From NCBI RefSeq assembly GCF_014204895.1, contig NZ_JACHMF010000001.1, positions 6,014,001-6,078,000 of the forward strand: a stretch of DNA of 64,000 nucleotides, in the 5' to 3' direction. A program made the translations under genes and the position numbers. Within the stretch, counting starts at the first letter, position 1. Each line of letters opens with the position of its first letter. The notes beneath the pieces were generated by a model. That model did no database searches and was not told the DNA's origin. It worked only from the letters and a program-made list of their open reading frames with translations. Of this stretch, positions 36,935-52,754 are shown in pieces. The DNA is from Paractinoplanes abujensis (GTDB taxonomy: Bacteria > Actinomycetota > Actinomycetes > Mycobacteriales > Micromonosporaceae).

Positions 36935-37015
36935 GGCGGGTTGCCCGAGCGGCCAATGGGAGCGGACTGTAAATCCGTCGCGAAAGCTTCGAAGGTTCGA
37001 ATCCTTCACCCGCCA
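36935..37015 (+). tRNA. tRNA-Tyr (GTA); integration target of the AICE
   Basis: An 81-nt class II tRNA: acceptor GGCGGGT/ACCCGCC, anticodon stem GCGGA/TCCGT with loop CTGTAAA (anticodon GTA), variable arm, T arm GAAGG/CCTTC and discriminator A. From the anticodon stem onwards (36964) its sequence is repeated exactly at 52661, so the element has replaced and restored its 3' half. Confidence 0.97.
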
Positions 37016-37020
37016 CCAGG
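36964..37020. repeat. attL of the integrated element (57-bp direct repeat)
   Basis: A 57-base sequence from GGACTGTAAA to CACCAGG, identical to 52661-52717. It covers the anticodon loop through the 3' end of tRNA-Tyr plus five bases. SLP1 of Streptomyces coelicolor also uses a tRNA-Tyr gene, so this is an established type of AICE site. Confidence 0.95.
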
Positions 37021-37028
37021 TGCACAAG

Positions 37029-37066
37029 AAGGCCCCTGACCAGCAGTGATGCTGGCCGGGGGCCTT
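37029..37066. terminator. Terminator after tRNA-Tyr and the integrase gene
   Basis: AAGGCCCC...CCAGC-AGTGAT-GCTGG...GGGGCCTT forms a long stem just inside attL, usable on both strands. A similar but not identical hairpin follows attR at 52724-52754, the original chromosomal terminator. Confidence 0.8.
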
Positions 37067-37149: not shown

Positions 37150-38586
37150 TCATTTGGGCGTGTCGGGGTCGGTGGGAAATTGCTCGTATCCCTCCTCGAT
37201 CCGTCGCATCGCGGCCTCGGCCTCCCCATAGATCCAGGTCGCGTAGATCGATAGCAGGACCTTGATGCTGTTGCCGGCCCACCGGGCGACCAGGGCCGGG
37301 GAGATGCCACGGGACAGCTGATAGGACAGGCAGGCGTGGCGCAGGTCGTACGGCCGGCGTGCGAGCGGGGACGCCAGTTCGGCCGGGGTGAGTCCGGTCT
37401 CGCGTGCCTTCCGCCACGCGGTGCTGATGGCGTTGCGGGTGAGCGGTCGGTTGCTCGCGGTGACGTACGTCCCTCCCGGCCCGCGTCGGGTGACGAACAA
37501 TCGCCCGTTCGGGGCAGGCGGCCACCGCTCGATGTGCCGGTCGAGTCGGGCACACAGCCGGGGTGGCGCGGGGACGGAGCGGACCGCAGTCGCGGCTCGA
37601 TGCTTGAGGCCGCGTTCCTCGGTCGACTCCCCCGCGTCGGTCCACGCGCTCCCAGCCTCGGAGATGGCGCCGCTCAGGTGAAGCCAGCCCCAGTCGCCCT
37701 GTCGTTTCGGCCGCTCGTAGTCGGCGTCGGCCAGCATGAGGCTTTCCTCGGGTCGGAGTCCGGCGTCATACAAGGTCCCGAAGAACGCTTCCAGCTCGGG
37801 TGTGGTCCGGCGGACGGCGAGCAGGAGCCGGTGCCCTTGCTCTTGGTTGACCACAGCCCGGCGGTCGACCTCGTTGGTGAGCTTCGGGGCCTCCCACCGG
37901 ACCTTGTCGAACGGGTGGGCCACCAAGTGCCCGGTCTCCACCCCGTACCGCAAAGCGCCGCTGAAGATCGCCTTCTTGCGCTGGACGGTGCTCGCCGCGG
38001 CGGCCTTGCCGTCGATGCGCAGCGCGAGCGCATCGAGAGCCTTGCGGATCACGGCGGGATCAAGAAGGGCGCCGAGATCCACTGTGTTGCTTCCGAGCCA
38101 GCGCACGGCGTCCGCCAGGTCGGCCGGCGGCTGGTCGGCGGCGGCGCGGCGGCCCCTGTTGTAGGACCACCCCCGCAGCGCGGCCCGGAGGTCGACCTCG
38201 GCCGGTGCGGCACGCTCGGTGGTCCGCAGCGCCAGGGTCACGGCTACCAGGGCGTCGGCGATGTCCCGGCGGTGCTTGGCCGAGGCTCGCGACCATTTGA
38301 GATCCACGTAGGCAACCGCGTGGTCGTACCACGATCGGGTGTGCAGTGCCCGGGCCATCGGCTCGGGGAGTCCCGTGGCGGTGTCGAACGCGAGGCCCTC
38401 GCGCTGCGCGGTGATCAGTTTTGCGCGGAAGCTCTCGGCGAGGGCCTTGGTGCGGAAGGTGTCGCCGAACTTGCGGCCGGCGACGGCCCACCGCACCCGG
38501 TAGGAGGTGCGGGCCTTGCGACCTTTGGCGGCCGGATAGTTCCGCTCCTCGATCTTGTATACCTGCACGTCATAGCTGGTCTTCAT
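37150..38586 (-). CDS. int: Tyrosine recombinase (site-specific integrase)
   Basis: ATG at 38586 ([20 protein letters not shown]) gives 478 residues and overlaps the excisionase stop by four bases. The N-terminal arm-binding and core-binding domains are followed by the catalytic domain: Arg in AGLRPEE (about 278), YDLRHACLS (Arg about 416; first box His replaced by Tyr as often in AICE integrases), RWAGNS and the nucleophile Tyr448 in LLSIYATW. It lies next to attL, as usual, and would insert and excise the element at tRNA-Tyr. Confidence 0.95.
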
Positions 38587-38774
38587 GCGGCTTGCGGCTC
38601 CTCCAGGCTCTTCTGCCAGGCTTCGTAGGCGTCGAGGCGGATGCGGATGCGGCCGTTCGGCAGCTTGTAGGTCCGGGGCGCCAGACCGAGGGCCTTCCAA
38701 CGGAAGAAGGTCGACTTCGGGACGCCCTCGGCCGCGAGGAACTCGGCGAGGCTGATGGATTGACGGTTAGCCAT
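38583..38774 (-). CDS. xis: Excisionase (MerR-type HTH)
   Basis: A 63-residue protein beginning MANRQSISLAEFLAAEGVPK with the winged-helix excisionase pattern STFFRWKALGLAPRTYKLPNGRIRIR. ATG at 38774 follows GGGAGG. It directly precedes int and overlaps it by four bases, so the two are coexpressed. A longer frame upstream has no similar content. Confidence 0.9.
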   Translation of the reverse strand: MANRQSISLAEFLAAEGVPKSTFFRWKALGLAPRTYKLPNGRIRIRLDAYEAWQKSLEEPQAA

Positions 38775-38995: not shown

Positions 38996-40117
38996 TCATG
39001 GCCACCCCGCTCCGCGGGTGTCACTCGTACTGTCACTCTCGTTTTGGCTGGTCAGCGAGGGTTGGATGACAGCAGTGACAGGAGTGACAGCGGTGACACC
39101 GGGGACGCGGTACCGGCCGCCGGGGTCAGCGGCGAGCTGGCCATCGGCGAGCATGCGGGAGCAGGTCTGCCGGGCGGTGTCCGGCTTGAGCCCGGTGCCC
39201 TCGGCGATGGCCTTGGGTGTGCTGCCGGGCGCGGTGCGCAGGAAGCGCAGGATCGCCGCGCGGGTGTCGCTGACCCGGTAGTCCGCGGCCGGGCCGTCCA
39301 GCATCCGCCATGCGCCCGTCCCGGGCTCGAAGGCCAGCGGGTATTCGGCCTCGTCGACGTCGCGGCCGGTCACATGGAGCACCCCGTCGCCTTGGTTGCG
39401 TGCGCGTTTGAGCACGAGGGTGGCGTCCGCGGCGCCGGCGAGACCGTTGGTGCCGGACACCTCGGACAGGAAGTCGTCGGATCCGGCCTTGCGGACGTGG
39501 TGGACCGCGACGATGGCAACGCCGTAGTCGTCGGCGACCTTCTTCGCCCGGCCGACTGCGGCGTAGTCGGCGTCGTACGCGGACGCGCCGGGAGCCGAGT
39601 TGCCGCGCAGCTTGGCGAACACATCGATGATGACCATCCGCGCGGACGGGTGCCGGTCGAGCCACGCCGCGATCGCCTCGGCGCCGCCCTGCGGGAGCGG
39701 CGGGCATTGAGTGGCCAGGGTGAGCCCGGCGGGCGCCTCCCGGTCGCCGAGAACTTTGCGGAGCCGGGTTTGCAGTCGGCGGGCGGTGTCCTCCAGCGCG
39801 AGGTAGAGCACGGGGCCGGGTTCGACGTCGATCGCACCGAGCGCCTTGTGGCCGAGGGCCACGTCTACGCCGAGGCCGAGGGACATCCACGATTTGCCGA
39901 CCTTGGGTGGACCGCAGAGCAGGCTGAACCCTTCGGAGATCACCCCGGGCACGGCCCACCGGGGCGGGGCGAACTCCATCGCCATGATGTCCGCGGCGGT
40001 CCACGAGGTCCGCAACCGTGCAGGTTGACCACGGTCGGCGGCCGTGAGGACGGCGGCGGCGTCGTCCGGTCCGGCGACGCGCAGCGCGGGGCGCTCCGCG
40101 GGGATGGGCGCGGTCAT
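38996..40117 (-). CDS. RepA/RecA-like AAA ATPase (replication helicase-type)
   Basis: ATG at 40117 overlaps the upstream stop by four bases; 373 residues. Walker A is GPPKVGKS (about 69-76) and Walker B MVIIDVF, with ALED and HHVRK elements of the RepA-type DnaB-like ATPases (AAA_25). A C-terminal winged-helix segment (TPKAIAEGTGLKPDTARQTC) may bind the origin. Together with the prim-pol gene it probably forms the element's replication module. Confidence 0.85.
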   Translation of the reverse strand: MTAPIPAERPALRVAGPDDAAAVLTAADRGQPARLRTSWTAADIMAMEFAPPRWAVPGVISEGFSLLCGPPKVGKSWMSLGLGVDVALGHKALGAIDVEPGPVLYLALEDTARRLQTRLRKVLGDREAPAGLTLATQCPPLPQGGAEAIAAWLDRHPSARMVIIDVFAKLRGNSAPGASAYDADYAAVGRAKKVADDYGVAIVAVHHVRKAGSDDFLSEVSGTNGLAGAADATLVLKRARNQGDGVLHVTGRDVDEAEYPLAFEPGTGAWRMLDGPAADYRVSDTRAAILRFLRTAPGSTPKAIAEGTGLKPDTARQTCSRMLADGQLAADPGGRYRVPGVTAVTPVTAVIQPSLTSQNESDSTSDTRGAGWP

Positions 40118-40953
40118 GCGGCGGCCTCCCAGTCGAAGAGGGCGGGCTGCGGCGCGGGCCGCGCAGCTGCGGCGAGCACGCGGGTACGCCAGTGCAGGGC
40201 GTAGGGCAGGCAGTTCGCGCAGTTGCGGTGCCGCCCGGCGGCGACGCATTGCGGTAGCGCGGGGCGTCGCAGTTTGCGGGCGACGTCGGACCACGCGAGG
40301 CTGTCAGCCGAGGTGAGCAGGTGCCCATGCGCGGCGAGGCCGAGGGTTTTGAACCCGAATCCGTGCAGCCTGCGGACACCGCGAATGTGAAGGGCGCGCA
40401 GGATACGGCCCGCGTCCCGGGTGCCTTGCCGGCGGCACACCGAGCCGACACCGACTAGCGGCGCGGTGGCCAGGTCGTAGCCGATTAGCGTGGTGTAGAG
40501 ATCGGCGCAGCGGAGGTAGTCGTCGCGTTCCCAGCCCTGCACGACCGGGATGATGGGCAGGTCCGGAGCGAGCTCGCGCAGCAGCGCGAAGTTGAGCACA
40601 GTGCGCCGTTGGTGTTCAGCCACCGACAGGTGGCTACCAGCGAACCGGATCGGGCCGGCCTGCCCGCCGTTGATCACGATGGGTTCGCACATCCAGTCCT
40701 GCGGTGCCGCCCACAACAGCTCGCCGATCTCGTCGCGGTAGCGGCGGAGCCGGGCCAGGTAGTCGCGGGGCTCAATCGTCCACCGGCCGAACTTCTGCAG
40801 CTCGGTGAAACCGCCCGAGTCGCAGCCCCACGGCGCGACGGCGCGGGGCAGCGTCTTGTAGACGCGCAGCCGGGTGTCGGAGACGAACAGCGGCACGCCG
40901 GCTTTGCCGAGCCAGCCGGGCTGGTGGGTGCCGAGCAGTAGCCGCGCGGTCAT
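40114..40953 (-). CDS. DpdA-like tRNA-guanine transglycosylase family protein (predicted DNA base exchange)
   Basis: A 279-residue protein I recognise as the DpdA/queuine-transglycosylase-like family found in actinophages and AICEs. Visible features are GTHQPGWLG at the start, CDSGGFTEL with Asp45 in the TGT catalytic position, PQDWMCEP (Asp87), VVQGW, GVGSVCRR, HGFGFKTLG, TSADSLAW (Asp216, possible nucleophile) and a zinc-binding C236...H...C245xxC248. In known Dpd systems DpdA exchanges guanine in DNA for a 7-deazaguanine. No queuosine-precursor genes lie nearby, so the base would come from the host or the enzyme acts on tRNA. It sits between replication genes with four- and one-base overlaps. 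Confidence 0.8.
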   Translation of the reverse strand: MTARLLLGTHQPGWLGKAGVPLFVSDTRLRVYKTLPRAVAPWGCDSGGFTELQKFGRWTIEPRDYLARLRRYRDEIGELLWAAPQDWMCEPIVINGGQAGPIRFAGSHLSVAEHQRRTVLNFALLRELAPDLPIIPVVQGWERDDYLRCADLYTTLIGYDLATAPLVGVGSVCRRQGTRDAGRILRALHIRGVRRLHGFGFKTLGLAAHGHLLTSADSLAWSDVARKLRRPALPQCVAAGRHRNCANCLPYALHWRTRVLAAAARPAPQPALFDWEAAA

Positions 40954-42005
40954 CAGGCCACCTGCCGCGGGCGGCGGGCGCCGGCGACGAGCCCGGAGCG
41001 GATGGTGTTCTCGAGTTCGCGGGGTCCAAGGCCGAGACGGGTCGCGGTGTCGGCGAGGACGGCGGTGATGGTGTCCTCGGCGACGGCGCCGCCGGCGACG
41101 AGTTGGCCGAGGGTTTGGGCGGCCATGAACAGCGCCCGGTTCCGGCCGCCCTCACGTGCCTCGGCAAGCTTGGCCAGTGTGCCGTCGATCGCGGCTCGCA
41201 GGTAGGCGCCGCGCCGGTCGGCGGGCAGCTCGACAACGAGCGGTGGGCCTTCCGGCCGTAGCGGTGCGGGTCGTAGCCGATCGGTCAGCCAGCCGGGCAG
41301 CGTGGTCGGGCGGGTGTCGAGCCGGACTGTGTACAACCGGCCGGCGACAGTCGAGCCAGCGGCGACGACGTAGCCGCCGTGCGCGCGGGTGTCGATTAGC
41401 CAGCCGAGGGCACCTGCGGTGTTGCGCAACTCGCCGTGCTCGGGGTGGCGGAAGTATAGGTGGAGCCCGCCGCGGCCGGTGGCCACGGCGTATGTGTGAT
41501 TGGGGATCGGGTGGCCGAGGTCGGCGCACAGGTCGGTGAAGACGCCCCAACCGTGCAGGTAGCCCTCGCGGCCTTCGGGCGCGGCTTGTCCGGTCTTGCG
41601 GGCGTCGAAGTCGAGCACCACGAGCCCGGACGGCCCGCAGGCAAGGCCGATCCCGTACGGGCCGGTCTGCCAGCAGCGGCGGATCCGGTCGGGATCGACG
41701 GTGGCGCGGGTCTCCCACCGCTCGATCGCGGGCCGTTTGTCGCCGGGGCGCAGGGGGAAGACGTGCCAGCCGCGGGCGGCGGCGGATAGGGCGGCGGTCA
41801 GCAATTCGTTGCTGTGCATGGGGATCCGCTCCTTCGGGTCGGTGGTGGGCGGTGTGAGCGCTTGTTCGGCGCAGGTTTTGTGGCAGGGCCGGTCGTGCTC
41901 GTCGCGGCAGATCGCCGGGAGGTGGCAGATCCGGCAGGGCAGTGGGGAGCCGGCGAGGTGCTCGCGCCAGTCGAGCCAGCCGGTCGGCACGGTGCGGCTG
42001 GTCAT
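40953..42005 (-). CDS. Bifunctional DNA primase/polymerase (prim-pol) with N-terminal zinc-finger-like region
   Basis: A 350-residue protein. Residues 1-62 contain CRICHLPAICRDEHDRPC, a zinc-finger-like set of Cys and His. The prim-pol domain starts around MHSNELLTAALSAAARGWHVFP and shows VVLDFDAR (metal-binding acidic pair), GRGGLHLYF and IDTRAHGGYVVAAGS. An internal ATG at 41819 has its own AAGGAG, so a shorter product of 288 residues is possible. It would prime or copy the element during autonomous replication. Confidence 0.85.
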   Translation of the reverse strand: MTSRTVPTGWLDWREHLAGSPLPCRICHLPAICRDEHDRPCHKTCAEQALTPPTTDPKERIPMHSNELLTAALSAAARGWHVFPLRPGDKRPAIERWETRATVDPDRIRRCWQTGPYGIGLACGPSGLVVLDFDARKTGQAAPEGREGYLHGWGVFTDLCADLGHPIPNHTYAVATGRGGLHLYFRHPEHGELRNTAGALGWLIDTRAHGGYVVAAGSTVAGRLYTVRLDTRPTTLPGWLTDRLRPAPLRPEGPPLVVELPADRRGAYLRAAIDGTLAKLAEAREGGRNRALFMAAQTLGQLVAGGAVAEDTITAVLADTATRLGLGPRELENTIRSGLVAGARRPRQVA

Positions 42006-42529
42006 GGTGTGTCGCGGCGCCGGCGGACCTCGGCCCGGATTTCGTCGTAGAGCGCCCCTGGGGTGGCGGTGTCGCGTTGGGCCATGGCCAGGTCGGCGTC
42101 GGACGCTGCGGTGACGCCGCCGCTGACGATGCGTTCGCGGGCGCCGGAGTCGATCGGCTTGCGAATGTTGATCGCGTGGTTGTCCTGGTTGCCGATCCGG
42201 ATAGCGGCGTCGCGTTGCTCCTGGGTAAGGACCTTCTGGTTGGTCTCCGGGACGAGAGTGACGTTGGGATCACGGAACAGTTCGCGGAGGGCGGCGTCGA
42301 CTTCCTGGCGGCTCAGGTCGGACAGCGCGTCGCGGATGTCGGAGAGCGCCACCCAGCCCTCGGCGCTACCGAGCAGCTCGAAGACGGTGCTGCGGATCCG
42401 ATCGGCCGGCGCGGCGACTTGCTCGGTTTCTGTGTCCGGTTCGGCAACCTCGGGCGGCGGGACCGGCGGCGGCGCACCGGGGCCGGGCGGCTTACTCGAG
42501 CGGCCCTTGCCGCCGCGGCCGCCCATCAC
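42002..42529 (-). CDS. Winged-helix-like protein of the element (unknown)
   Basis: A 175-residue protein with a basic/Pro-rich head (residues 1-40) and a probable winged helix (about 45-105: RSTVFELLGSAEGWVALSDI, LSRQEVDAALRELFRD). It overlaps the prim-pol start and the DUF4417 stop by four bases. It could be an origin- or DNA-binding accessory. Function not known. Confidence 0.65.
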   Translation of the reverse strand: MMGGRGGKGRSSKPPGPGAPPPVPPPEVAEPDTETEQVAAPADRIRSTVFELLGSAEGWVALSDIRDALSDLSRQEVDAALRELFRDPNVTLVPETNQKVLTQEQRDAAIRIGNQDNHAINIRKPIDSGARERIVSGGVTAASDADLAMAQRDTATPGALYDEIRAEVRRRRDTP

Positions 42530-43200
42530 CGACCTGCCCAGCGCGACGGATACGCGCGGATCGGCGCGTCACCAACCGTGCAGGTCGGCAAGGCCGTGCC
42601 GTAGACCAGCACGAGCGCGGGACGGAGCCGCTCGCACATCGCCTCATAGCCAGCCGCAAACAGCTCCCGTGCTTCCCGGTCACGGACGATCCCGACGGTG
42701 GACACGGCCACGGTCGAGCCGGCGGCGATGCCAGCGAACGCGAACGGGTAGCTGTCCGGGGTAGACCAGCTGACGGTCGGAATCGCGGTGATGTTGTGAG
42801 CGAGCATCCAGGCGCCGCACCAGCGCGAGCGGTAGACCTGCCATTGCTGCATGACCAGCGGCATCGTGGTCCACAAGCTGAAATCGGGGGTGAGGGCGGC
42901 GCCGACCGAGGCGCAGCGGGACAGGCCGCGTTCGGGTTTGGTCCACACGATTTCGAACCGGTAGTCATCGAGGAAGAAGTGCACCGCGTCGCCCGGCCGC
43001 GCGGCGGCGGTGGCGCGGCGGTCGTTGTAGGGCAGCAACCGTGCAGGTTCGCAGGTCACCGGGGGCAGGTCGGGAATGCCCCACGGGTTGCTGCTGGAGA
43101 ACAGGGCGCGGGTGTTGAGCCGGTCCCAGCCGCCGGGCATTTCGCCCCAGCGGTGACTCGTCCGGGTTCCGCCGAGGGTGTGTTCGGGTGCCAGGGTCAT
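42526..43200 (-). CDS. DUF4417 family protein
   Basis: ATG at 43200 (MTLAPEHTLGGTRTSHRWGE) gives 224 residues. DUF4417 features include FFLDDYRFEIVWTKPER, LTPDFSLWTTMPLVMQ, YRSRWCGAWM and IPTVSWS. The family is common in phages and AICEs of actinobacteria and has no established function. It overlaps its neighbours by four bases. Confidence 0.82.
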   Translation of the reverse strand: MTLAPEHTLGGTRTSHRWGEMPGGWDRLNTRALFSSSNPWGIPDLPPVTCEPARLLPYNDRRATAAARPGDAVHFFLDDYRFEIVWTKPERGLSRCASVGAALTPDFSLWTTMPLVMQQWQVYRSRWCGAWMLAHNITAIPTVSWSTPDSYPFAFAGIAAGSTVAVSTVGIVRDREARELFAAGYEAMCERLRPALVLVYGTALPTCTVGDAPIRAYPSRWAGR

Positions 43201-43568
43201 CGGGTGCTCCGTCCGTCGTAGCAGGTCAGGCATTGACCGAGCGAGCGCGGGATGTAGTAGTCGCGGGTCTCGCGGCAGGTCGGGCAGGTGCGGCGGGCGC
43301 GCAGCGCGGCCCGGATCGCGCGCTGCTGCGCAGGGCTCGCGGGCCGCTTGGGCCGGGCCAGGTCCAGCCGGTAGAGATGCGCGGTCCGGGTGCCGCCGAT
43401 CCCTGCCCACAGGATTTGCGCGGCGATCGGCTGGCGACCGGGGCACAGTCCGCGGGCGCGCAACTGCCGGCGGGTGGCATAGCCCTCGGGCGCGCCGCGC
43501 CACCAGAACGTCGGCAGCCCGTACCGGTCGCCCTCGGGGTCGTGGAACGCGGCCCGGATGCGGCTCAT
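43197..43568 (-). CDS. RRQRL-motif-type zinc-binding protein
   Basis: A 123-residue protein with TRRQLRARGLCPGRQPIAAQ and two C-terminal Cys pairs (CPTC and CLTC), the pattern of the small RRQRL zinc-binding proteins seen on actinobacterial elements. The motif here reads RRQLR. Function unknown; tight overlaps with neighbours suggest coexpression. Confidence 0.75.
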   Translation of the reverse strand: MSRIRAAFHDPEGDRYGLPTFWWRGAPEGYATRRQLRARGLCPGRQPIAAQILWAGIGGTRTAHLYRLDLARPKRPASPAQQRAIRAALRARRTCPTCRETRDYYIPRSLGQCLTCYDGRSTR

Positions 43569-43906
43569 TGCGCGGCCCTACGCCCGACCGCAGGTCGCTC
43601 GGTTCGGTGCCGCACCATCTGTTGGCGGATGGCGACCTCGGCGAGCAGCTCGCGCATGAGGCGCAGCGTGGTGGCGAGCTGCCAGCGGGCGCCGGTTTCG
43701 GTGTGGTGCAACGGAATCCGGGCGCGGATCTCGATGTAGTCCACGTCGCCGGCGCGGACACGGGTGACGATCGCGCGGCCGCCGATCTCATCGGCGATCA
43801 GGTCGGGTGAGCGATGCTCGGTGATCCCGCAGCGGTGGTCACGGGCGCACCATGGCGTGTGCTCGGTGGGCTCGCGCCGGAAGTGGGCCATGGTCCGGGC
43901 GCTCAT
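43565..43906 (-). CDS. Small conserved element protein (113 aa, unknown)
   Basis: ATG at 43906 (MSARTMAHFRREPTEHTPWC) overlaps the neighbouring stop by four bases. It contains CARDHRCGITEHRS, a possible metal site, then an Ala/Arg/Leu helical C-terminus. No family assigned. Confidence 0.65.
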   Translation of the reverse strand: MSARTMAHFRREPTEHTPWCARDHRCGITEHRSPDLIADEIGGRAIVTRVRAGDVDYIEIRARIPLHHTETGARWQLATTLRLMRELLAEVAIRQQMVRHRTERPAVGRRAAQ

Positions 43907-44311: not shown

Positions 44312-46459
44312 TCAGGCAGCCTTGCGGCGGCCGATCGCGGCGTCGATGTCGTCGGTCTTGGCGCCCTTGAGGGCCTTGCCGGACCGCTTGACGTCTACGC
44401 TGCGTACACCGAACGAGCGGACCTGAGCAGAGATCGATTCGGCGGTGAGGTCCGCGTACGCCTCGGGCAGCCGTTCGGCGAGCCGGGTGGCGATCTCGTC
44501 CCACTGCGCGCCGGTCTCGCCGCGCTCGATCACCGAGCGGACGTCAGCGAGCACGTCGCGGTGCTCGCGGGCGATGTCCTCGCCGGCGGCCATGCCGGAC
44601 AGAGTCCCGGCCTCCTCGCGCAGCTTGCGCGCGGCGATCAGGATCTTCTCGGCGTCGTCGGCGTCAGCCAGGTACGTGCGTACGGTCGGGGTGGCGTCCG
44701 AGGCGCCGCGCAGGATCCCGACGCCCTTGTAGCTGGGCAGCAGCGTGGACGAGTCGTAGCCCTCGGAGTTCGCCCCAGCGCCGAGGACCAGGTCTGAGAC
44801 CTGCCATGAGCCGGTACGCAGCGAGAACCGGACCTGGTGGTTGTCGCGGAAGCTGATGAACTGGGTGGCCACCTGCCCGCCACCGACACCGCTCGGGCGC
44901 TGGGTGGCGTCGACAAAAATGACGCCGGCCGCGGGGGCCACCTTGACCAGGTAGACCAGCAGGCTCGCGATCTCCTTGCTGATGTCGCCAAGGTCGAAGT
45001 ACTCCTGGAACTCGTCCAGGAACACGGCACGCACCGGCATGCCGTACTTCGGGTCCCGGGCGATCTCGCGAGTCAACTTACCCTCGGGGCAGACGTCGGC
45101 GGGCAGCTTGGACAGCCGCTCGTATCGGTCCTGCACGTCGGCCTTGATCTCCCGCAGCGCTTCCAGCACGATCTCGGCAGGGTCGCCGTCGCGGGTCATC
45201 GCCAGCCCGAACGCGCAGCGGTCCGCGACCAGGGCGAACTTGCGCCAGTCGGGCTTGCCGCCGCCATCGAGCACGGTCAGCTTCACGTAGGGATCCAGCG
45301 CCGCATACAGCGCCAGCGCGCGGGCCGCGAATGTCTTACCCTGCCGAGGCTGCGCACCGATCAGGATGCTGTTCCACAGCATGTCGACGGTGACCTTGTT
45401 GCCGCGCTCATCGAGCCCGAACGGGGCCGGCTGCCAGATGTCGGTCGGCTTGCATCGCAGCAGCGGCGTCCGGCCGGCGGCCTGCGCGAGCGGGTCCCGG
45501 TCGGCCACCCACAGCACGTGCCGGCGGTGGCTGCTGGGGTCACGGGTGATGAACACCTGCGACAGGGCCACGTCCAGCCCCGAAGCGATCGCGCCGCGTG
45601 CCTTGACCGCGTCATCGAACGTCTTGCCGTACGGCAGGTCGATCGACACCTGCGAGCCGGTGCCGGACGGGTCACGGCCCATCGTGGACCCGAACCCGAT
45701 CTGCTGATGCGCCTTGTCCGGGTGCCCAAGACCGGCCGCATAGTAGGCGCGCAGCACGATGTCGGAGTTGACCCGCCGGAACCGGCCAGCCACCGTGGCC
45801 GGGGTGATGATGCGTCGGTCATCCGGCCGGCCGACATGCGCCAGGAACGCCACGATCCCAGCCGTGACCAGCAGAAGCACCCACCACGAGGCGGTCGCCC
45901 ACAGCACCGGCAAGCCGATCCCGATCAGCAGCACCTCGGCGGCGAGCACGAGGAACCGCCACATGCGAGTGGCCTTGACCTCGCGGTGCAGCTTGAGCCA
46001 CATCGCGGGGTCGTTGGCGTCGGCGGCGGCCTGCCGCAGCCGGTACTGCTCGGTCACCCACCACCACTTGAGCTGACGCCCGGCAAGCCGGACCACACCC
46101 ACCGTCGCCCAAAACATGGCGAGGACGGCGTACATCGGCGAGCGCAGGGCGTGGAAACCGATCCGGTAGCCGGTCACCTCGGCCGCCTGCGCGAGGCTGT
46201 GCCGAATGTTCGGCCACGTAGACCAGTTCACCGGCACGATCGGCCGCCGCCCGGACGGACTGACCGGCTCGGCGTCAACGGGCTTTCCGCCCGGCTGGGG
46301 GTGCTCGTCCAGCGTGATGTCGAAGTGGGTGCCGGCCTCGGCCCGGCGGGTCCGCTCAGCGTCCAGGTCGACCACCTCGGCGCCCTCGGCGGCAACGGCG
46401 ACGTCGGCCTCGGCGGCGGTCCAGTCGAAGTTCTCCGGGTTGTTCTGCGGGCTGGTCAT
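44312..46459 (-). CDS. traB: TraB-type FtsK/SpoIIIE DNA translocase (conjugation)
   Basis: ATG at 46459 behind GGAG gives 715 residues. Two to three membrane helices (about 109-126, 168-190, 191-208) precede the motor domain with Walker A GAQPRQGKT (about 368-376) and Walker B RAVFLDEFQ (about 477-485). A C-terminal winged helix (about 655-690) could recognise clt repeats. In AICEs one such protein moves double-stranded DNA between mycelia. Coupled to the small membrane gene upstream by an ATGA overlap. Confidence 0.92.
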   Translation of the reverse strand: MTSPQNNPENFDWTAAEADVAVAAEGAEVVDLDAERTRRAEAGTHFDITLDEHPQPGGKPVDAEPVSPSGRRPIVPVNWSTWPNIRHSLAQAAEVTGYRIGFHALRSPMYAVLAMFWATVGVVRLAGRQLKWWWVTEQYRLRQAAADANDPAMWLKLHREVKATRMWRFLVLAAEVLLIGIGLPVLWATASWWVLLLVTAGIVAFLAHVGRPDDRRIITPATVAGRFRRVNSDIVLRAYYAAGLGHPDKAHQQIGFGSTMGRDPSGTGSQVSIDLPYGKTFDDAVKARGAIASGLDVALSQVFITRDPSSHRRHVLWVADRDPLAQAAGRTPLLRCKPTDIWQPAPFGLDERGNKVTVDMLWNSILIGAQPRQGKTFAARALALYAALDPYVKLTVLDGGGKPDWRKFALVADRCAFGLAMTRDGDPAEIVLEALREIKADVQDRYERLSKLPADVCPEGKLTREIARDPKYGMPVRAVFLDEFQEYFDLGDISKEIASLLVYLVKVAPAAGVIFVDATQRPSGVGGGQVATQFISFRDNHQVRFSLRTGSWQVSDLVLGAGANSEGYDSSTLLPSYKGVGILRGASDATPTVRTYLADADDAEKILIAARKLREEAGTLSGMAAGEDIAREHRDVLADVRSVIERGETGAQWDEIATRLAERLPEAYADLTAESISAQVRSFGVRSVDVKRSGKALKGAKTDDIDAAIGRRKAA

Positions 46460-46617
46460 CGCTGGTGCTCCTTCCGGGCGGTGCGGGCGGCGAGAACGGT
46501 GCTGACGGTGAACCCCACCGAGGCGGCGGCGGACAGCCACCATCCGGCGCCGGGGTCGGTGATGGCGTCCACGGCGAACAAGACCGCGGGGATGGCGAGC
46601 AGGTACCAGAAACGCAT
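46456..46617 (-). CDS. Tiny Spd-like membrane protein (53 aa)
   Basis: MRFWYLLAIPAVLFAVDAIT starts at ATG 46617 and a second hydrophobic segment follows (GWWLSAAASVGFTVSTVL). The stop overlaps the traB start (ATGA). Small hydrophobic proteins near tra genes are spread (Spd) functions in Streptomyces plasmids; here that role is inferred. Confidence 0.65.
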   Translation of the reverse strand: MRFWYLLAIPAVLFAVDAITDPGAGWWLSAAASVGFTVSTVLAARTARKEHQR

Positions 46618-47080: not shown

Positions 47081-47815
47081 TCACGCGGCTACGAGAGTGG
47101 GCATTTCCGCAGGAACCGGTGCGGATGGTGACGCATCGGTGACGGGCGCGGGGGGCAGGTGCCGGCGGGCGGTCGAGATCGACACACCGGCCTTCTTGGC
47201 GATTTCGGCGACGCTCGCGCCAGGCAGCTTTGCAGCCGCCTTGGCCACCTTGTCGGCCGACGCCGGCCGCGGCGTGACGCGCTTCGCGGGAGCCTTCTTG
47301 ACCGGCTGCGCCGGCTCAGGCGTCGAGGCGGGCTCAGGCTCGATTACCGGCGCAGGAATGACCGTGGCGAGCACCGGAGTCGGCGCTGGCGCAGCTGCGG
47401 GAACCTCCGCCTCGGTCAGCGCGCGGATCCGGCCGCCGATCTCCACCAGACTGATCGAGGCGACGATGATCAGGCCGTCCACGCTCAGCGGGAGCAGGTA
47501 CGGGCTCGCGTCCGTCTCGCCGTAGCGGGACGCCACAGCGACCATGTGCCAGTACGACACCCACGCAGCGATGCCCGCGATCACACCGGTAGCACCCAAC
47601 CGGACGTATGACGTCCAACCGCGGCGAGCCGGGACACGCGAGATGAGCTCGACCGCCAGCAACAGCGCCAGCGGTGACCACGCCGAAATGGCCTTGCTGA
47701 CCGGACTGTCCGCGGCGTGCAGCACGTTGCCCGCGAGCGATGCGGCGATACCAAGGGCGAACACGCCTCGGGTGCCCCAACCGATGCGCTTGAGTCGAAC
47801 GACGTCCTGCGTCAT
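47081..47815 (-). CDS. DUF2637 membrane protein with C-terminal helix-turn-helix (Spd-like)
   Basis: A 244-residue protein with four hydrophobic segments (about 15-35, 45-60, 70-90, 105-125) typical of DUF2637 proteins of Streptomyces plasmids and AICEs, then a Pro/Ala linker and a short HTH-like segment (VAEIAKKAGVSISTARRHL). Probably a spread or transfer accessory. It overlaps the upstream gene by one base. Confidence 0.8.
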   Translation of the reverse strand: MTQDVVRLKRIGWGTRGVFALGIAASLAGNVLHAADSPVSKAISAWSPLALLLAVELISRVPARRGWTSYVRLGATGVIAGIAAWVSYWHMVAVASRYGETDASPYLLPLSVDGLIIVASISLVEIGGRIRALTEAEVPAAAPAPTPVLATVIPAPVIEPEPASTPEPAQPVKKAPAKRVTPRPASADKVAKAAAKLPGASVAEIAKKAGVSISTARRHLPPAPVTDASPSAPVPAEMPTLVAA

Positions 47816-48057
47816 CAGGCCACCTCCCGGAAGGCGGCGGGACGCGCGGCCAGGTCGGCGGCGAGGCGCGTCACGCGGGCCTCAGCCCGACGCAAACGAC
47901 GCCAGTCCAGCGGCGACGGGCCGCCGTGGTCAGCGGCGTGGATCAGGGTGATCTCGGCGTCTAGCAGAGACAACTCAGCCTCGATCAACGGCCACTCGAC
48001 CTCAATCGCGGACAACGCCTCTGGGGAAGGATCGAACTTTCGGTCTGCGGCTCTCAA
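47815..48057 (-). CDS. DUF6284-like small protein (80 aa)
   Basis: TTG at 48057 has AAGGAG six bases upstream, which favours it over longer open frames. The sequence includes SAIEVEWPLIEAELSLLDAE and LDWRRLRRAEARVTR, as in small proteins at the head of AICE operons. It is the first gene of the long minus-strand operon, just behind the control region. Confidence 0.65.
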   Translation of the reverse strand: MRAADRKFDPSPEALSAIEVEWPLIEAELSLLDAEITLIHAADHGGPSPLDWRRLRRAEARVTRLAADLAARPAAFREVA

Positions 48058-48100
48058 GACGCACTCCTTCGCGATGATCGGGAATAGGTGCCGGTGTTCG

Positions 48101-48259
48101 CCCCCCTTCACTGCATCGTTCAGGGGGGTGCACCAACAGAGCACCATGCCGACCTCGCCGTAGTCAACCCCCCTTAACAGATAACTTCATGGGACTAGAT
48201 GACTGCTCAAGTTGCCATCCCCCCTTGACCGGGAGCCGAGTATGATTAGGCCCCTTGAC
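48101..48259. promoter_or_regulatory. Divergent control region with CCCCTTNAC repeats
   Basis: Direct repeats of CCCCTTNAC occur at 48101-48111, 48168-48178, 48219-48229 and 48249-48259, with an inverted related copy at about 48118-48130. They lie between the minus-strand tra/rep operon and the plus-strand regulator. A TATGAT at 48241-48246 is a good -10 for the regulator. The repeats look like operators, probably for the HTH protein that follows. Confidence 0.65.
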
Positions 48260-48279: not shown

Positions 48280-49116
48280 TTGAAGGATCTGGCCGACGTT
48301 GAGGCCCTCACCAACGCACGCGAGCGTGCCCTGACCGCACATAAGCTGATCGACGACCACCAGCTGGCAATCGCGGAGTTATCCCGGATCCGGCGGTCTG
48401 CGCTCGAAGAGCTGCTCAGTGACAACATGACGCAAGCTCAGCTAGCGGAAATGCTCGACATGTCGCGCTCACGCGTCTCGCAGCTTCTCTCCGCCGGGAC
48501 ACGGCCCGAACGGGCATTCCTCGGCGCCGGCCGCATCACCATGGCAATCGGGGGAAAGTTCGAGGTCGGCCGAAGCGACCCCGGCGCTGTGTTGTCTGCC
48601 GAAGCCTTTACGGCGTACGAGGTTCTCGCCGAGACCGCGAGGGCAGTTGGACTCGATGCTGCCTACGAGGTGGTTCCCCCACCAGGGCACGTGCACCTCA
48701 ACCGCCCGAATCTGATTGTCCTAACCAACCCGCGGCTTCTCCCCTTCTTGAGCCAAGTAATGGAAGCCGATCCGCATCTCCGTTATGTCGAGGATCGGAA
48801 CGGCTGGTTCATCAAAGAGCCCGACACGGGCAAGGAGTACCGTTCGCCCCGCGACAGCGGCGAGTGCGCGGACTATGGCTACCTTGGCCGCCTACCGCGG
48901 CCAGATGGGAAGGGATCCTTCCTCTACATAGCCGGCACACACGCGCAAGGAACTCTCGGAACTGCCCGCTATGTGGCCGACAATTTGCCGGAGCTGCACA
49001 GAGAGCTGAAAACTCGGCGGTTCTCAACCGTCATTCTCTGCCGCTACAGCGAGAACGATCGCCTTCAGATCACATCTACAGAGCGGGTCACGCCGCTCTT
49101 CCGCCACGAAGGTTGA
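48280..49116 (+). CDS. HTH transcriptional regulator of the element
   Basis: TTG at 48280 behind GGGGAGA; 278 residues. A helix-turn-helix (MTQAQLAEMLDMSRSRVSQL, about 50-70) follows a helical N-terminus; a C-terminal domain of about 180 residues (DPGAVLSAEAFTAYEVLAET... VILCRYSENDRLQ) is unknown and may sense a ligand. It contains a TTA leucine codon at 48379-48381. It faces the repeated operators and precedes a PP2C-like gene by eight bases, suggesting a two-protein switch for excision and transfer. Confidence 0.8.
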   Translation: MKDLADVEALTNARERALTAHKLIDDHQLAIAELSRIRRSALEELLSDNMTQAQLAEMLDMSRSRVSQLLSAGTRPERAFLGAGRITMAIGGKFEVGRSDPGAVLSAEAFTAYEVLAETARAVGLDAAYEVVPPPGHVHLNRPNLIVLTNPRLLPFLSQVMEADPHLRYVEDRNGWFIKEPDTGKEYRSPRDSGECADYGYLGRLPRPDGKGSFLYIAGTHAQGTLGTARYVADNLPELHRELKTRRFSTVILCRYSENDRLQITSTERVTPLFRHEG

Positions 49117-52660: not shown

Positions 52661-52717
52661 GGACTGTAAATCCGTCGCGAAAGCTTCGAAGGTTCGAATC
52701 CTTCACCCGCCACCAGG
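52661..52717. repeat. attR of the integrated element (57-bp direct repeat)
   Basis: Exact copy of 36964-37020. It holds only the 3' part of tRNA-Tyr, with no 5' half in front, so it is not a second tRNA gene but the remnant left on the chromosomal side. Confidence 0.95.
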
Positions 52718-52723
52718 CGCACG

Positions 52724-52754
52724 AAAGGCCCTCGACTCCGGTCGGGGGCCTTTT
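52724..52754. terminator. Original tRNA-Tyr terminator, shared with the MOSC gene
   Basis: AAAGGCCC...GGGGGCCTTTT forms a stem-loop with a T run on the plus strand and an A run on the other, directly before the end of the convergent MOSC gene. It resembles the hairpin after attL. Confidence 0.8.

Follow-up and report, generated by a model that had tools for sequence, protein, structure and literature searches.

Bacterial dpd islands restrict DNA that does not carry their own mark. The DpdA of such an island (solved as 7ui4) is accompanied by DpdB, DpdC, and QueC, as at locus L134 of this study, and phages with DpdAs of the 9g and Rosebush types carry genes for 7-cyano-7-deazaguanine (preQ0). 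The 7-deazaguanine marks shield phage DNA from restriction enzymes to various degrees (PMC6884629). The largest group of DpdA phages (76 phages) lacks preQ0 genes, and the so-called singleton DpdAs fall in separate network clusters, more studies being required on their functional divergence (Hutinet et al. 2019, PMC6884629). The gene considered here comes from a 64,000-nt stretch of Paractinoplanes abujensis (contig NZ_JACHMF010000001.1, positions 6,014,001 to 6,078,000; called the window below). At positions 40114 to 40953, on the minus strand and within an actinomycete integrative and conjugative element (AICE), lies a solitary dpdA whose 279-amino-acid product, P0001, belongs by sequence grouping to the singleton lineage, as found in mycobacteriophages. 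The best explanation of the whole, to which we give about even odds, is that P0001 is a singleton DpdA with the fold of tRNA-guanine transglycosylase (TGT) that marks the DNA of the AICE with 7-deazaguanine against restriction. DNA modification with 7-deazaguanine appears to be favored by two comparisons: in sister elements the gene trades places with C5-methyltransferase genes, and several of its relatives are linked to an importer.

The open reading frame that the first-pass annotation had called is real. It is intact from its ATG, whereas the plus strand in the same frame is interrupted by stops. The resemblance to DpdA claimed for it is borne out by a match of 260 bits to Pfam PF23859 'DpdA' (curated cut-off 27), spanning residues 1-278, and by a match to phrog_1279 (PHROG), though the lineage is the singleton one and not the 9g or Rosebush type. 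In BLASTP, P0001 shares 44-55% identity with nine PF23859-type proteins of phages and plasmids, including those of the singleton phages Murucutumbu (51%) and Soto (49%). Its best match in BFVD is a protein of phage Bella96 (E 2.4e-30), and of the 399 phage records that tblastn recovered at E<=1e-3, 391 come from mycobacteriophages; among the records listed, most are annotated as queuine tRNA-ribosyltransferase. The DpdA proteins of phages that we take to belong to clusters K and B1 (Orion presumably among the latter) match PF23859 as well. Placement in the singleton lineage follows because P0001 groups with these proteins and not with the DpdAs of 9g and Vic9 (Rosebush-type). The K and B1 genes likewise have no preQ0 genes annotated beside them in the stretches seen, but they sit elsewhere, whereas the gene of P0001 is in the replication operon of an AICE in a Micromonosporaceae host.

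P0001 belongs to a large family that is already known. Among 7998 candidate proteins scored, 7521 are relatives at E<=1e-3. The gene is under purifying selection, with a ratio of nonsynonymous to synonymous substitution (dN/dS) well below 1. Carriage is patchy, the PF23859 cut-off being exceeded in 24 of 200 Micromonosporaceae genomes and 14 of 150 Streptomyces genomes, both evenly sampled. One Micromonosporaceae genome (G112, contigs C1 and C4) has seven PF23859 matches, some of them fragments. Two plasmid PF23859-type proteins (L091:6016-7281 and L100:6061-7101) have a C-terminal extension, and a scan of the first gave weak helix-turn-helix matches.

Comparison of a predicted structure with TGT and DpdA, which had been proposed as a check, gave the expected kinship. 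The AlphaFold model of P0001 (pLDDT 91) finds its best matches among solved DpdA and TGT enzymes, with ArcTGT the top VIA row of the structure comparison and, at third rank in Foldseek, the Cap10-CdnD complex 9ntn. The TGT-type catalytic aspartates claimed at the outset are in place, D45 within DSGGF and D217 within SADS, and they are near-invariant: together with D86, Q139, and H197, they are found in P0001 and in 90-91 of 91 aligned PF23859 family sequences (the window protein included). The claimed zinc site is weaker than described. C248 is present in 91/91, but H242 is found in 82/91 and C245 in 79/91 (replaced by E in 12), and, of the other ligand positions considered, 237 and 254 are variable. 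The 9g and Rosebush-type DpdAs share with the P0001 alignment the DSG motif, a histidine motif (HGFG/HGWG), and a DS..W motif. Bacterial and archaeal TGTs (PF01702) resemble P0001 in fold and, as judged by eye, in the order of the active-site motifs. P0001 differs from them in its DNA-element context, in its length (279 residues against 359-390 in the bacterial and human TGT targets), and in sequence: the Pfam scan gave no PF01702 match, and sequence searches from P0001 towards TGT and PDB gave none.

The surroundings first described for the gene also hold up. It stands between a helicase-type ATPase and a Prim-Pol gene, overlapping the two flanking genes by 1 and 4 bases. Prim-Pol (bifunctional primase/polymerase; PF09250, 153 bits) lies at 40953-42005, and the AAA_25 replicative ATPase lies at 38996-40117, both on the minus strand; the ATPase was listed as a frame at 38996-40294 (PF13481, 136 bits), and its start was set by us at ATG 40117, which overlaps the dpdA stop. 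The gene is solitary, as had been claimed: no DpdB-like, DpdC, QueC, or other queuosine-pathway family was found among the larger element frames scanned (for DpdB and DpdC the search did not extend to the whole genome), so that the context differs from that of the bacterial dpd system, where DpdB, DpdC, and QueC stand alongside.

How often dpdA occupies this junction was surveyed in relatives of the ATPase collected without using DpdA (loci L142-L191, plus the window's own, L141). Loci with no Prim-Pol in range (L161, L165, L166, L167, L182, L183, and L187-L190) and one with too weak an ATPase match (L168) were dropped, and the count rests on 39 loci from 36 genomes, two loci each coming from G022, G090, and G559. 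The query ATPase came from a dpdA-bearing element, which favors close relatives. Prim-Pol and ATPase adjoin in 30 of the 39, and one more (L160) has a 170-bp gap. A gene is inserted in the remaining eight: in four it is dpdA (L153 and L170, both from G022; L184; L191), in four a C5-methyltransferase-type gene (L147, L154, L156, L185), and in none is it of any other kind. Three of the four methyltransferases exceed the PF00145 cut-off; the fourth (L154, the same as L219) falls short of it, with E 0.0025, yet carries the PPCQ and ENV motifs. A close relative of the ATPase on a Nonomuraea plasmid (L208), outside the 39, also has an empty junction, and six viral-contig loci with ATPase relatives have no Prim-Pol by the queries used. 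In seven Streptomyces loci with the same ATPase, selected through DpdA, dpdA lies instead upstream of Prim-Pol, and a methyltransferase-like match falls within the stretch of 10 of 57 DpdA loci on genome contigs. Methyltransferase-like genes upstream of Prim-Pol (L209, L212, L217, L231, L232) were excluded, as they lie below the Pfam cut-off or are unmatched.

Because the junction is empty in most related operons, dpdA is, on this comparison, an optional cassette and not a core replication function. That the junction is shared with DNA-modifying enzymes only suggests DNA as the target of P0001. The orphan C5-cytosine methyltransferases, which fill four of the eight junctions that hold a gene, work with a different chemistry and cofactor from those of DpdA and need no imported base.

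The importer in question is of the VUT family (QPTR, PF02592), a known family of queuosine-precursor transporters (PMC11130926). A gene of this family lies directly upstream of the PF23859 gene in seven loci: on plasmids of Nocardia (L091), Embleya (L092), S. janthinus (L106), and Streptomyces sp. QHH-9511 (L109) and in three genomes, G120 (L138), G296 (L116), and G342 (L130). A plasmid search that took as its query a VUT gene itself found beside a PF23859 gene gave 14 VUT records; six are actinobacterial plasmids, and the pair is present in four of these. As L091, L092, and L106 had first been found through DpdA, they do not form an independent sample. On two loci, a protein of about 190 amino acids with no Pfam family (L107:4501-5070 and L108:4517-5089) follows the importer where others have dpdA. 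When importer linkage is mapped on a tree of 91 proteins, it takes five label changes to account for the seven linked genes, and starred branches force three of these changes; several of the genes are long branches, and gains are indistinguishable from losses. The pairing points to queuosine precursors as the base used by the family, insofar as gene neighborhood is a guide.

Of the eight further VUT records, the one inspected was L110. There, on Roseivivax plasmid pTHAF30_b (L110:150-4495), the importer has three neighbors: a short QueC-family protein, a protein of the PfkB/nucleoside 2-deoxyribosyltransferase kind, and a protein annotated as 8-oxoguanine DNA glycosylase. Perhaps these genes provide a deazaguanine deoxynucleotide by a path that does not need DpdA.

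The role that seems most likely on these comparisons is that of an optional self-marking (anti-restriction) gene serving conjugation of double-stranded DNA, one that would work only where the base is available. The base, the DNA target, the roles of the residues, and the protection are what we infer in the following scheme. A TGT-fold transglycosylase would remove guanine from DNA and put a free 7-deazaguanine base in its place, either preQ0 or a base closely related to it. D217 would form the covalent intermediate with the DNA, D45 would act as general acid/base, and D86 and Q139 would hold the base. The gene would be a mobile accessory of AICEs, and its translational coupling to Prim-Pol and the replication ATPase leads to the proposal that the enzyme is produced during replication of the excised element. 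AICEs transfer as unprocessed double-stranded DNA (PMC3218068, PMC5365140), and such transfer, unlike that of single-stranded DNA, would presumably be exposed to restriction in the recipient. Copies of the element marked after excision, before the FtsK/Tra-type transfer, might then resist it. The orphan C5-methyltransferase at the same junction of sister elements may play the equivalent role. The base would come from those hosts, a minority, that have QueC (among them hosts with a chromosomal dpd cluster) or be taken up from outside, and in the present host the enzyme would stay inactive unless some route brings the base in. Hosts with a dpd-like locus would be a special case, as they would make the base and might also restrict unmarked DNA.

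Several observations weigh against this explanation. The agreement in fold is modest, with Foldseek TM-scores (template modeling scores) no higher than 0.55 and further TIM barrels appearing from E 2.6e-4, and a sequence-profile comparison with TGT found nothing. The DpdAs of 9g and Vic9 do not match PF23859 at E<=1, so proven activity lies outside this sequence family. BLASTP between P0001 and these two gave no significant match, nor did P0001 match the PADLOC models, DpdA included, at E<=0.01; by sequence, then, it does not join the proven DpdAs, whether 9g, Rosebush-type, or bacterial. What similarity there is to Vic9 DpdA is weak and confined to a few PF23859-type proteins (best BLASTP E 7e-5, with a protein of an M. 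aubagnense plasmid; hhalign to A1 with E 9.5e-5 and probability 31), and hhalign to single known enzymes failed for 9g DpdA, two bacterial DpdAs, and one TGT. No published DNA modification was found for the singleton lineage. The DNA of Orion, a singleton-DpdA phage, is unmodified in M. smegmatis, as expected, since neither the phage nor that host makes preQ0, and Salmonella phage 7-11, of the other singleton group, has only 50 dADG (2'-deoxy-7-amido-7-deazaguanosine) per million nt (PMC6884629). Given the result with Orion, the Pfam name 'DpdA' is by itself no proof of activity. Even a proven enzyme need not protect: 9g DpdA, expressed by itself from pBAD24, put in place 790 2'-deoxy-preQ0 (dPreQ0) per million nt, and the mark it makes on its own, on no more than about 0.3% of G, gave no resistance to EcoRI (PMC6884629). 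Nor is the importer a general companion. A QPTR gene is found in none of the 57 genome-contig DpdA loci (up to 10 kb on each side) and in none of the loci of the window protein's own 13-row clade, and of the 11 in 200 family genomes with a QPTR match, nine have no PF23859 gene. The two families occur together in G120 and G198 only, side by side in G120 alone.

The supply of the base belongs on the same side of the balance. The first-pass annotation had suggested that the element might modify its own DNA with preQ0 from the host; the comparative evidence favors the DNA-modifying role, but the host's preQ0 did not survive the check. In the host genome (G000; 9.33 Mb in one contig), there is no match to QueC, TGT (PF01702), or QPTR/VUT, and QueE gives chance-level matches only (best E 0.195); FolE, QueD, and the QueT/QrtT importers were not searched. 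Many queuosine-precursor transporters are still unidentified according to PMC11130926, and this leaves room for salvage. Full-length QueC is present in 16 of 48 genomes bearing DpdA-positive loci (those of 48 of the 57 loci) and absent from the other 32. The share of 16/48 is above the 19/150 seen in Streptomyces, but the sets differ in make-up, and nothing is drawn from it. Counting QueC at E<=1e-20 only, it is found in 30 of the 200 family genomes, five of them with PF23859, and in 19 of the 150 Streptomyces genomes, three of them with PF23859 (the centre genome included). Tallies over the Pfam cut-off would be 107/200 and 138/150, the extras being mostly short or partial matches in longer frames. 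With the centre genome excluded, host QueC accompanies 7 of 37 PF23859 carriers versus 41 of 312 others (p=0.32, not significant), made up of 5/24 versus 25/176 in Micromonosporaceae and 2/13 versus 16/136 in Streptomyces. Because this host lacks matches to QueC, TGT, and QPTR and because carriage shows no significant link to QueC, reliance on host preQ0 fails here and cannot be general.

TGT itself is rare in the family, with some match in 15 of 200 genomes and E<1e-40 in seven. Where a weak TGT match lies near QueC, in the manner of a dpd locus, PF23859 is present in 4 of 8 genomes versus 20 of 192 others (p=0.008), a comparison made post hoc and uncorrected for kinship, with L134 alone of the eight scanned for dpd genes. 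The overlap is a lead, not a result.

If most carriers cannot make preQ0, then perhaps the enzyme has the same fold and exchanges bases in DNA but uses something else, another 7-deazapurine or a guanine analogue common among actinomycetes. This is unlikely, in our estimation, though it stands above the other rivals. It would account for the lack of QueC in 30 of 37 carriers in the even samples and in 32 of 48 DpdA-selected genomes, although the family keeps the catalytic residues tested and the gene is under purifying selection; 7-deazapurine natural products have been reported from actinomycetes, and Hutinet et al. (PMC6884629) hold that functional divergence of the singleton DpdAs needs more study. 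The seven QPTR pairings point instead to queuosine precursors, and the residues taken to bind the base are identical, one row excepted, in importer-linked and solitary members. Somewhat less probable is a hitch-hiking gene, with no present benefit in this host and kept through passage among hosts where it is useful. Its patchy carriage and a host without matches to the pathway genes sought are what one would expect of such a gene; the intact frame here and the dN/dS well below 1 are not. The idea is compatible with self-marking of the AICE and differs from it in the present host only.

The fold, with ArcTGT at its head, the database name queuine tRNA-ribosyltransferase given to relatives, and the lack of a TGT match in the host would also suit a tRNA-guanine transglycosylase that alters translation of element or host. 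We consider this quite improbable, as P0001 falls short of the length of the bacterial and human TGT targets, and neither a position in a replication operon nor a junction common to DNA methyltransferases suggests tRNA. Conjugation of 7-deazaguanine to protein, as in type IV CBASS (cyclic oligonucleotide-based antiphage signaling system; Cap10-CdnD with NDG modification), is highly improbable. It is brought to mind by the rank of 9ntn in Foldseek and by protein deazaguanylation by QueC-family enzymes, described in PMC13279940, but CD-NTase and QueC-like families are not among the scanned element frames, P0001 has no PADLOC match, and the gene neighborhoods observed have to do with replication, transfer, and DNA methyltransferases.

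Self-marking by the AICE would have consequences beyond this element. Actinobacterial conjugative elements might share an interchangeable DNA-marking cassette, either a C5-methyltransferase or a solitary deazaguanine transglycosylase, the latter working on scavenged base, so that protection would be conditional on a metabolite supplied by other organisms or by a recipient's dpd island, whose restriction it could evade. So broad a picture is tentative, and we doubt it more than we believe it. If self-marking is right, scavenged 7-deazaguanine would shield conjugative elements whose transfer is double-stranded, and their way around restriction would depend on community metabolism. It is the junction swap and the importer pairing that raise interest in what is otherwise one more member of its family, and they make the role of singleton DpdAs directly testable. 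The question is family-wide, as thousands of relatives of P0001 exist and many DpdA phages are without a base supply. No report of DpdA in AICEs was recognized by title or abstract start in the open-licence literature.

The element itself is 15.8 kb long and is inserted in a tRNA-Tyr (GTA) gene (36935-37018, plus strand; ARAGORN). The 3' end of the tRNA, together with sequence downstream of it, forms a 72-bp direct repeat (36964-37035, attL-like) whose second copy, 95.8% identical, is at the right end of the element (52661-52731, 71 bp, attR-like). It is an AICE by structure, as the first reading had it, because these repeats go together with FtsK-like, Prim-Pol, ATPase, and integrase-like genes, that is, with functions for transfer of the FtsK/SpoIIIE type, replication, and integration. 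The integrase-like gene (37150-38700, minus strand, TTG start as listed) is below the Phage_integrase cut-off, yet its position downstream of the AAA ATPase is conserved across related elements. The transfer protein, FtsK/SpoIIIE-like and of Tra type (44312-46543, minus strand; phrog_1358, E 7e-21), is found in many of them.

The replication operon is tight. All on the minus strand, its genes run in the order DUF4417, a 175-amino-acid frame, Prim-Pol, dpdA, and AAA_25 ATPase, with successive overlaps of 1-4 bases. The 175-amino-acid frame (42002-42529) matches no Pfam family. The DUF4417 protein at the head of the operon (42526-43791; PF14386, 186 bits; phrog_940, PHROG 'nuclease') recurs near Prim-Pol in several sister elements. 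Further to the right are minus-strand genes for a DUF2637 protein (47081-47815; PF10935, 39 bits) and a DUF6284 protein (47815-48147; PF19801, 62 bits) and, on the plus strand, one for a helix-turn-helix protein, a probable regulator (48280-49116; HTH_3, 24.6 bits, cut-off 23). The larger frames on the right side encode this last protein and a PP2C-type phosphatase, with no other family above cut-off. The tRNA-Tyr (GTA) that serves as integration site belongs to the four tRNAs that carry queuosine elsewhere; insertion of the element in a tRNA of this type is probably coincidence.
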